Below, in pieces: positions 26,865 through 44,617 of a stretch of 64,000 bases of DNA (position 1 is its first letter; every line of letters begins with the position of its first letter). The translations under genes were made by a program, and so were the position numbers. The stretch spans positions 558,001-622,000 of the forward strand of contig NW_024881845.1 of the NCBI RefSeq assembly GCF_019059575.1, read 5' to 3'. Below the pieces are notes generated by a model that was given only the letters and a program-made list of their open reading frames with translations, did not search any database and was not told the DNA's origin. The stretch comes from Amphibalanus amphitrite (Eukaryota; Arthropoda; Thecostraca; Balanomorpha; Balanidae).

Positions 26865-27731
26865 CAGGGGTGTAATTTTCCTAAAATGATTGTGGGTGCC
26901 CAGCTGTAGGGGCGCCCGGCGCCAGGCCGTTTTGGGGCGCGATAGATATTCTTTATGTGGGAGCCTAAATTAACACCGAATTTGATAACATTGCTAGCCG
27001 AATGGCACTTCAAGTGACGTGTCTGACTAAGCAAATACACGCTTAAAAGTGGAAACTGACCGGAAGGACGTAAAATGCTGTAGAGGGCGCCATCCAGTAG
27101 GAGGGGCACCAAATGTGGAGGCACCAGACGGTTACGACTTACGAGGGCGCCGTGAGACGATGAAAAGGGCGCCATTCTCTTGGGAGGGCGCCGAGTGATT
27201 GAAAACGCTATGTGGTCCAGGGGCGCTAAGAGGCCAGAAGGGCGCCGCACAGTCAGTAGTGCTACGTTGGTGGGGGCGTGGGGACGCCAGATGGTTACGA
27301 GGGCGCATTGAGATCATGAAAAGGGCGCCATTCTCGTAAAAGGGTGCCGAGTGATTGAAAACGCTATATGTGGTTCAGGGGCGCTGAGAGGCCAGAAGGG
27401 CGCCGAACAGTCGAGGGATGCACGGTGAACAGAGACCTAAGGACGCGAGACGGTCAGGAGGGCGCCGTTAGACCATGAGAATGGCGCGGTGCTGTCAAAA
27501 GTGCGCCATTCTCCCAGAAGGGCGCCGAGTGATTAAAAACGCTATATTATCCATGAACGCGAGACGGTCAGGAGGACGCCGTTAGAGCATGCGAAGGGCA
27601 CCGTACTCTCGAAAGGACGCTTGCAGCCTTGTAAAAGACTTGTGGGTGCATTTTCATCATTGTGTGGGCATACATAATTCAGGATTGTGGGTGCATATGC
27701 CCCCACAAAGAGATATAAAATTACACCCCTG
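26865..27731. mobile_element. Nested hAT-type element with CAGGGGTGTAATTTT termini
   Basis: The perfect inverted termini CAGGGGTGTAATTTT are flanked by the exact 8-bp duplication CATACGGG (26857-26864, 27732-27739). It is inserted inside the larger 25868-27915 element, so it is the younger of the two. The interior is a GGGCGCC-based repeat array. Its ends resemble those of the element that disrupts the CUB gene. Confidence 0.9.
27080..27615. repeat. GGGCGCC-based tandem array with higher-order units
   Basis: GGGCGCC recurs every 15-30 bases. Larger blocks of about 170 bases are repeated, each with CCATTCTC, GCCGAGTGATTGAAAACGCT and GAGAGGCCAGAAGGGCGCCG. It fills most of the nested hAT element. 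Open frames here have no coding meaning. Confidence 0.8.
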
Positions 27732-41860: not shown

Positions 41861-41867
41861 TATAAAG
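41861..41867 (+). promoter_or_regulatory. TATA box of the CUB-protein gene
   Basis: A canonical TATAAAG lies 45 bases upstream of the ATG at 41906. Transcription would be expected to start about 30 bases downstream, near 41890, which leaves a very short 5' untranslated leader. Its position directly before a start codon followed by a signal peptide is the main support. Confidence 0.6.
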
Positions 41868-42474
41868 GTCGGCTCCAAACTGCGCCATCCAACCATTCTG
41901 GCATCATGTTCGGCCTCATGGTCTGTTGTCTCGTCCTGGGCACCGCCCTCGCCAAGCCAGCCGAGAAGGTCGCGGGCACCGCAGAGAAATGGGACGATCT
42001 TGCTGTCTCTTCAAGAAAGGGAGTGCTTCACGTGAAGAAGGATTCTATTGCAGTCGAGTCCAGAGTTCCATAAGCGTATCTTTATATCTCTTTGTGGGTG
42101 CTCAAGCACCCCCAATCCTGAGCTCAGCACCCCCTGCCTTCTTAAAGCACCCCCAGCCTCCTCAAAACATTCCCAGCTGACTCAAGGCCCTCAATAATCA
42201 GTATTTTCTTCTCCTAGTACTGTAATGAGCCCAGTGAATCATGCAAATACTCTGCTTACTCAATTCAGTGACTAAGAGAATATACCTACATTGAATAAAT
42301 CACCACAAATTAAGATGCATGATATTTGTGTTAACATTACATCTGATATTATCAGGGGCCCGGGAACGATTTTCAAGTTGAGGGGGGGGGGGCGAGCCTA
42401 AAATACCTGACATGATGCATATGAAACAGTGGCATAGCTAGGGGTCTAAGGGGACACGTACCCCCTCCCCCCAT

Positions 42475-43625
42475 CGAGTTCAAAGGGACCCTCGGGTCCG
42501 AGTGGCCCTGCGGCGCCATTTGACCGCTGAGGGTTAACGATGGCCATATTTCTACTCAGAAGGGCCCCGTGGGGCTCGTTAGAGCACCTCATGGGCCCTA
42601 AATAGCCACACCAAGGTCTCCATAAGGGCCCCACGCCGACTTCTGAGGGCCTCTTGCGGCTTTTAAGGACACCTCGGTGGTCTCCAAAGGCCCGTTAAGC
42701 CTGAAACAGACTCTTTCCGCAGTCAGGAAATCGCATGCGAGAGCCTACTCAAATACATGGAAGCACGCTCGCATCAATCGCACGCACCCCCCGCCAGCGA
42801 TTGATGCGAGAGGAATTACAATGTATTTGAATAGGCTCTCGCATGCGATTTCCTGAACGCGGAAAGAGTCTGCTTCAGCCTTTACTGGCCTCTGAGAGGT
42901 CTTACCGGCCTATGAGGGGACAGTTCTAGGGGCATTTCCCACCTGTGATGGTCCCACACTTATTTTTCTGAGGGCCCCATAACGGCAACTATGGGGCCCT
43001 CGTCGGTGCCTATGAGGGCCCACACCGGTGTCTCTGAGGGTTTCACACCCCCAACTCTGAGTGCCTATACCAGTGCCCATTAAAGCCCTATATCGGCGGC
43101 TCTGAGGGCCCAACAGTCAACACCTGCGCATCTAAAGGCCACCCACTGATGACTTGAGGGCCCCACAACGGTGACCCTGAGGGCCCCACCGGCGTCTGAC
43201 AGTACCATGCCGGTCTCTTAGGACCCCGCAGGACTTCTTCTGCCGGCCTAATAAGGACCCCTTGCCGGTCACTGAGAGTCTGAGACCCCCTGCCGGCTTG
43301 TAGAGAGTTCGCGTCAGCAGCTCTAAAGGTCCCACACCCGTCTGTAACGGCTCTACACCAGCGTCTATGAGGGCCCGGAGCAACGCCTGTAAGGACCCTC
43401 ATCGGCGCCTCTGAGAGAATCACACTAGCACCTCTGATCGCCCACACCGGCACCTGCATGGCGGCCCCACACCGGTGCCTCTCTTGCCGGCGGCTCTGAG
43501 GGCCCTACGCCGGTGATTCTGAGGGTGCCACCGATAACTGAAGGCACCGCACAAGCCCTTAGTGTAGCTGAGATTTAATCCCATACCGGCCCTCCGAGGG
43601 CGCCACGTCAGTGCACTCATTGCCC
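42475..43625. repeat. GGCC-rich degenerate minisatellite inside the hAT element
   Basis: Irregular copies of a roughly 28-30-base unit close to TCTGAGGGCCCCACACCGG recur across more than 1 kb, with much variation between copies. The same consensus appears in the TA-flanked element near 18.2-18.6 kb and, on the other strand, in the hAT element near 29.7-30.6 kb. Open frames crossing the array are by-products of the repeat and not genes. Confidence 0.75.
42694..42887. repeat. Palindromic (hairpin) element within the minisatellite
   Basis: Two arms of roughly 85 bases are inverted copies of each other. The left arm includes CAGACTCTTTCCGC and AAATCGCATGCGAGAGCCTA; the right arm holds their complements. 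They flank a short C-rich loop near 42781-42795. It interrupts the GGCC array and is probably a small inverted-repeat transposon nested in it. Confidence 0.7.
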
Positions 43626-43654
43626 CACATCCCTCCCTCACACCCGGAGCGGGT

Positions 43655-44059
43655 AAACTGTGATATACCTATAGCAACGATTTTACCACCGTTGTACGTT
43701 ATGTATTTCTCAAAGTTGACTCAAAATGGTCCAGTACAAAATCTGGCCTGCCAAACTTATGGCCAAGGTCAGACCCAAACACGTTTTGGGCAATCAGTCT
43801 CAATCCATGACTCCATTCTTCGGCTACTTACGGTGCAAGGCCGATACTGTAGAAACTTGCAATTTGTACCCTTGACCTGACCTTGACCTTGACCTCAAAC
43901 TTTAAATTAAGTTCATGTTTTTAGTTATTCGTGATGAGATCTTTCGATTGGCGTTTGAATTTTCCAAATCGGACCATTAGTTCGGGAGATAACAGGGGGG
44001 TAAAATTTATCCCCCAGCCCCGCGCGTTCGGCTGGAGACCCCAGCCCCGCGCGGGTTAA
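43655..44059. repeat. Partial piggyBac-like, GGTCA-rich repeat segment
   Basis: TGACC/GGTCA motifs cluster here. A G-tract, an AT palindrome (TAAAATTTA) and a C-tract follow, then GCGCGGGTTAA at 44051-44059. This is the same right-end architecture as the TTAA elements at 38754-39681 and 52653-53865. I could not find a matching left terminus, so the copy is probably truncated. Confidence 0.5.
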
Positions 44060-44617
44060 TGGATTGGGTGAGCCAAAATTGTTTTACAGTGGCGCTATTA
44101 AAACAAGCTCTCGAACCGATTTAACATCATTTCTTGCATGATGCCTGATGGTTACAGTAAAAAAGAACAGCTAAAAAAACTACAAAAACTATGGCATGCC
44201 TTTCTGAACGCTATTGAGCACCCCCAATGATTTTTGGAAAACTACACCCATGCAGAGTTCTGAGTGAGGATCCGCAGCAGCTACCGAAGACGGCAACCAG
44301 CCTCATCGATCAAAACGTGTGCGAATACCATTTTATCTACTCCAGCCATTACCACTTCACATCGCCCAACTATCGTCTATCCCAACCTCTATCCGAGTGC
44401 CAGCCTTTGTTACGTGCTGCGAACTAGTTCGCGTCATCAACTGGTGCATCTTGACTGCAACCCATTCTACATCCAGTGCCCTGGCGACCATTTCACCGTC
44501 GACGGTCTTCAGTTCTGCGGCTCCAACGGCCCCAACCTGTACGGAGCAGAGCTCAATGTGGGTTTCTACAGTCCAGGGGGGATGAGCTGGTTCTCCTGCA
44601 CGGCCACTTTGTCGTAA

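Follow-up and report, generated by a model that had tools for sequence, protein, structure and literature searches.

Two described systems lie closest to the locus reported here. Mar, a non-autonomous hAT transposon of Drosophila willistoni, has CAG(G/A)GG ends and 8-bp target duplications, and the target consensus of Buster-type hAT elements is nnnTAnnn, as given in the available part of the published description (PMC3517528). Aa-CUB-SP is a CUB-serine protease of the barnacle Amphibalanus amphitrite and, judging from the available part of its description, it resembles the gene studied here in being secreted and CUB-bearing (PMC4593178).

We analyzed a stretch of 64,000 nucleotides from A. 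amphitrite (assembly GCF_019059575.1, contig NW_024881845.1), hereafter the window, together with searches of the genome, covering 807.55 Mb in 2644 contigs. Two primers published for the cp1 gene of Balanus amphitrite (PMC2713238) both have exact matches in this genome, facing each other on C252 at 544103-544193 and spanning 91 bp, the amplicon length given there; this agrees with A. amphitrite as the source, and a single amplicon might also fit a close congener. Our main reading, to which we assign a probability of roughly 90%, is that this locus holds a recently formed pseudogene from an intronless family encoding a signal peptide and a single CUB domain, split by a non-autonomous transposon (probably a hAT element) and carrying a second small indel in the CUB domain. 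Both lesions, the boundaries and youth of the element, and an empty paralogous site are present in the assembly itself.

The interrupted gene and its paralogues

The first-pass annotation of the window had described a secreted CUB gene interrupted by a transposon, and the boundaries of the insert, the CAGAGTTC duplication and the TAA stop were all confirmed in the sequence. The parts of the locus are listed below.

41861..41866, plus strand: TATAAA, a TATA-box-like sequence 39 bp from the start codon; putative promoter element
41906..42068, plus strand: 5' part of the gene, signal peptide (by eye) and linker, translated as MFGLMVCCLVLGTALAKP...VESRV
42061..42068, plus strand: left copy of the target-site duplication, CAGAGTTC; external to the element according to the comparison of copies
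42069..44252, plus strand: non-autonomous DNA transposon of 2184 bp, probably hAT, with ends CATAAGCGTATC...CTACACCCATG; delimited by copies at both ends
42071..42073, plus strand: premature in-frame stop TAA, bases 3-5 of the insert
44253..44260, plus strand: right copy of the target-site duplication, CAGAGTTC; this second copy has no counterpart in the paralogue C317
44261..44373, plus strand: gene back in the reading frame that it had before the insert, covering the linker and the beginning of the CUB domain, SEDPQQLPK...CEYHF...FTSPNY (translation and paralogue HMM)
44371..44380, plus strand: zone of the second lesion, TAT-CGTC-TAT, a net +1 (modulo 3) frameshift in the CUB domain
44381..44617, plus strand: remainder of the CUB domain and native stop (translation and paralogue HMM)

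The interrupted frame starts with the ATG at 41906, and the native stop is the TAA at 44615-44617. The window was translated in six frames and searched with a profile of 11 paralogues from which the window gene was left out. Three pieces of the window matched the profile collinearly, at profile positions 1-49 (the piece from 41906; E 6e-13), 48-93 (the frame ending at 44424; E 3.9e-9) and 87-170 (44264-44614; E 1.2e-15). A profile without C317, the nearest paralogue, recovered the same three pieces with E-values of 2.7e-10, 2.3e-7 and 3.1e-8, respectively. As for background, the next forward match had an E-value of 0.66 (0.70 without C317), and the sole match to reversed sequence had one of 0.91. 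The window pieces contain six Cys residues, two of which align, by eye, with the Cys of C..YDWL and of YCG in the paralogues. The signal peptide, the QPLPK-like linker motif and the CUB domain, which mark the secreted single-CUB family of this genome, occur in the window gene in the same order. Pfam gave no match at E 0.001 for ten long ORFs lying in other parts of the window.

C317 is one uninterrupted ORF of 172 aa counted from its Met. Its codons align gap-free through the insertion site, where it has neither an insert nor a second CAGAGTTC-like copy. Identity to C317 is 68% for the 5' part of the gene and 53% for the piece at 44381..44617; in the 240 bp upstream, 193 of 238 aligned positions are identical, and TATAAA stands at the same position in both. 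The codon-for-codon alignment of C317 across the insertion site, together with the collinear pieces on the profile, upholds the earlier proposal that the two halves are one gene.

The protein search with the signal-peptide half that had been suggested as a check for intact paralogues returned 17 further places at E-values up to 10, the single-ORF C317 included, mostly clustered on C2118, C521 and C1727. All 11 CUB-only paralogues in our alignment are single ORFs (six of the 17 further places lie outside the alignment); with the gap-free alignment of C317, this comparison of sequences suggests that the broken gene was likewise compact and intronless, as had been claimed. Searches of the assembly with both flanks returned no uninterrupted haplotype. 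With the 648 bases of the 3' flank, matches were confined to the window locus and 281 bases of C317; the 629 bases of the 5' flank matched the window locus, 407 bases of C317 and, around the signal peptide, 11 places over 58-76 bases. On C2118 and C521 we observed near-identical CUB genes (L059 and L060) in two clusters, which may be haplotigs or the result of a recent duplication; L059 is without the last Cys and has an unrelated C-terminus.

Four loci (L028, L060, L054 and L015) exceeded the curated cut-off of the Pfam CUB family, PF00431; the first three are CUB-only, and L015 joins a CUB to a trypsin domain by Pfam. C317 scored 17.5 bits, below the cut-off of 21.4, and the window pieces, in which the domain is split by the frameshift, gave no match to PF00431. 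A profile of five family members matched the structures of cubilin, procollagen C-endopeptidase enhancer and MASP. Around the third Cys, the window gene and C317 are without the E-S-H and Y-D residues that are mostly present in the other paralogues and that have a role in calcium binding. A reading of domains by eye, which left out L011-L013, L016, L023, L027 and L032, also revealed long single ORFs in which two CUB-like stretches are joined to a trypsin-like domain at L014, L017, L018, L020 and L038.

The second lesion and the gene before the break

The frame changes between the second and third profile matches, at about 44371-44380 and more than 100 bp downstream of the insert. This frameshift in the CUB domain is a lesion separate from and independent of the transposon insert. 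The statement in the first-pass annotation that the frame was still open on both sides therefore fails for the downstream half, which runs to 44373 and then shifts within the CUB domain. Removal of the insert alone would leave no open frame, because the CUB half has a frameshift of its own.

The same annotation had discounted the insert, one duplicate and seven extra bases to obtain 513 nt, or 171 codons. The sum is correct (41906-44617 spans 2712 nt, and 2712 - 2184 - 8 - 7 = 513); seven is not the only number of extra bases that would do. The stretch that starts with the codon following SPNY and runs to the codon aligned with the next Cys (before YV) is 34 nt long in the window, against 30 nt in nine of the 11 paralogues, C317 among them, and 33 nt in the other two (L054 and L057); at this Cys the aligned residue is Ser or Ala in eight of the 11. 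Only the net +1 (modulo 3) is fixed by the frame, and 513 nt is one among several possible lengths. Judged by length, the sister gene C317 suggests a net change of +4.

It is a real, if minority, possibility that the small indel made the gene a pseudogene first and that the transposon then landed in dead sequence: both lesions lie in one gene and nothing fixes their order. Of the columns invariant in nine outgroup paralogues (L059, with its differing C-terminus, was excluded), 12 are altered in the window gene only, seven in C317 only and 15 in both, and 32 are unaltered in either; these counts hint that the window gene has been changing faster. On the other side, there is no further stop or frameshift in the 167 aligned codons, the upstream region is conserved, and dN/dS against C317 over these codons is below 1, at 0.55 (bootstrap 0.35-0.88, 300 draws; one gene pair, with dS of about 0.55). 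The power of these observations is low; in simulations that let a quarter of the differences be neutral on the window branch, a third of the runs were free of stops. Within that low power, dN/dS and the conserved upstream region are compatible with a gene that was under constraint until lately.

The inserted element and its superfamily

Among the best 40 places in the genome, most copies of the element start matching at 42069, with a few extending 1-10 bases further; among the best 40 places of a second search, most end at 44252 or at most 4 bases away. Eight copies (window, C1705 and L063-L068) were read at both ends. Each is flanked by a perfect 8-bp target duplication and all eight duplications are different in sequence, which shows that the 8-bp duplication is not a chance repeat. 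When up to 3 mismatches were allowed, the 3' 21 bp of the element had 894 matches in the genome, and the reversed control had 11. The insert is non-coding; for the three ORFs of at least 80 aa lying entirely within it, Pfam gave no match. Two further features concern the element and a relative of it in the window.

42685..42894, no strand assigned: inverted repeat within the element, with 74-nt arms, 89% complementary and 62 nt apart
26865-27731: related element of 867 bp with perfect CAGGGGTGTAATTTT terminal repeats and the 8-bp duplication CCCGTATG

Next to the 74-nt inverted repeat lie GC-rich direct repeats, degenerate and about 30 nt long.

In a comparison of six full copies, one substitution and no indel were private to the window copy. 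This copy has 29 derived columns in common with the C1705 copy, from which it is 3 substitutions and 11 gap columns apart. The C1705 copy has 2 private substitutions, and the other four have 13-25, numbers inflated because these four are without a close partner in the set. The insertion is young, and the recent disruption noted in the first-pass annotation stands on that one private substitution. The copies at L063 and L064 hold further insertions inside, and both were rejected as coding partners of the element, their extra length being other insertions. The one nested in L063 (1174-4940) resembles, by eye, an LTR retrotransposon; it is probably also young, because its 231-bp terminal repeats are 100% identical.

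The insert likely belongs to the hAT superfamily, an assignment that the evidence supports in part. In its favor, all eight copies read at both ends have target-site duplications of 8 bp, as hAT elements do. The related 867-bp element has CAGGGGTGTA ends, of the kind found in Mar, and shares 41 bp of subterminal sequence with the insert (87.8%); when up to 2 mismatches were allowed, its 20-bp end had 306 matches in the genome and none in the control. The insert's own ends, CATAAGCGTA and CATGGGTGTA, start with CAT and are identical to each other at 7 of 12 positions. The target consensus of Ac-type hAT elements is nTnnnnAn; the duplications fit it in one of the eight copies, and none of the eight fits the Buster-type nnnTAnnn.

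At least 149 matches to hAT transposase domains were present in the genome. Ends of the insert type were absent from the 3' flanks of the 10 matches sampled; one of these flanks (L078) has a 22-bp internal match to the element in inverse orientation. Element ends and hAT matches were compared by eye among the first 100 ends of each kind. At C329 (G000, 496071-498145) a CAGGGG-type element end was observed about 2 kb from a hAT transposase match, which, judged by strand, lies outside that element; the place is a possible pointer to the coding partner.

The P and KDZ/Zisupton superfamilies also have 8-bp target duplications. We think it unlikely, though worth a place in the argument, that the insert belongs to one of these or to another superfamily with duplications of this length. 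The CAT rather than CAGGG start of its weakly matching ends, the poor fit to both target consensuses and the missing partner in the sampled hAT flanks all point that way. The 867-bp relative, with its perfect CAGGGGTGTAATTTT ends, its own 8-bp duplication and the common subterminal sequence, argues for hAT.

History of the locus and relation to known systems

We propose that a cut-and-paste element, probably a hAT, inserted in the linker between the signal peptide and the CUB domain, moved in trans by a transposase presumably encoded elsewhere. Insertion would have duplicated 8 bp, and bases 3-5 of the element would have supplied the in-frame stop, such that a transcript from the conserved, putative TATA-type promoter would encode no more than 55 aa, a count that takes in the signal peptide. 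The second small indel would independently break the frame within the CUB domain. The gene has probably lost its function, and it may well have been working until lately.

A more elaborate version of this history appears improbable to us. It would take the TAT-CGTC-TAT indel as the footprint of an earlier excision, so that the gene was struck twice by mobile DNA. The present insert, if diversity here reaches the level reported for the related Balanus improvisus, would postdate most differences between alleles and hence be a null allele still segregating in a fouling barnacle, at a gene for a secreted CUB protein.

An assembly or sequencing error behind the insert or the small indel is very improbable. 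The evidence does come from one assembly, and the published A. amphitrite assembly of 609 Mbp, which the available part of its description derives from pooled tissue of two individuals (PMC8270832), is probably not the one used here. Nevertheless, the exact ends of the element, the perfect target duplication and one base absent from the five other full copies are as in real transposition. The small indel lies outside any homopolymer run, yet it is the weaker of the two lesions.

Least credible of all is that the element is a new, introner-like intron that is spliced out so that the gene still works: transposon-derived introns are known in other eukaryotes and the right duplication gives an AG at the junction (ATGCAG), but CAGAGTTC, by inspection, is without an AG-GT arrangement for exact removal, the second frameshift would persist after splicing, and no suitable pair was found among 924 pairs of canonical GT and AG sites, of which five lead to the native stop; these five all lack a GTRAG donor and lose at least part of the second piece.

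Taken as a fresh pseudogene split by a transposon, the locus shows clearly how a member is lost from a multi-copy family of secreted genes: the element, the duplication, the empty paralogous site and the second lesion can all be read. The transposon family has several hundred ends in the genome and has moved very recently, and insertion polymorphism among individuals would be expected. Neither the mechanism nor the gene family is of a new kind, and this is a common type of event. The locus is not named in the published literature that we searched, from which its absence from print does not follow.

Compared with Aa-CUB-SP as set out in the available part of its description (PMC4593178), the broken gene and the 11 aligned paralogues differ in having one CUB domain and no protease domain. 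Other loci of the genome, such as L014 and L017, have by eye the published Aa-CUB-SP layout, being set beside it by description and not by sequence (PMC4593178). Compared with Mar, again within the available part of the description (PMC3517528), the insert is similar in having no coding capacity, short imperfect terminal repeats and 8-bp duplications, and in both cases copies with intact duplications are read as a sign of recent movement. The insert differs from the 610-bp Mar in its length of 2.2 kb, its GC-rich degenerate repeats and its internal 74-nt inverted repeat, in ends that start with CAT as opposed to CAGGGG, and in target sites that are TA-centered in none of the eight copies (PMC3517528).
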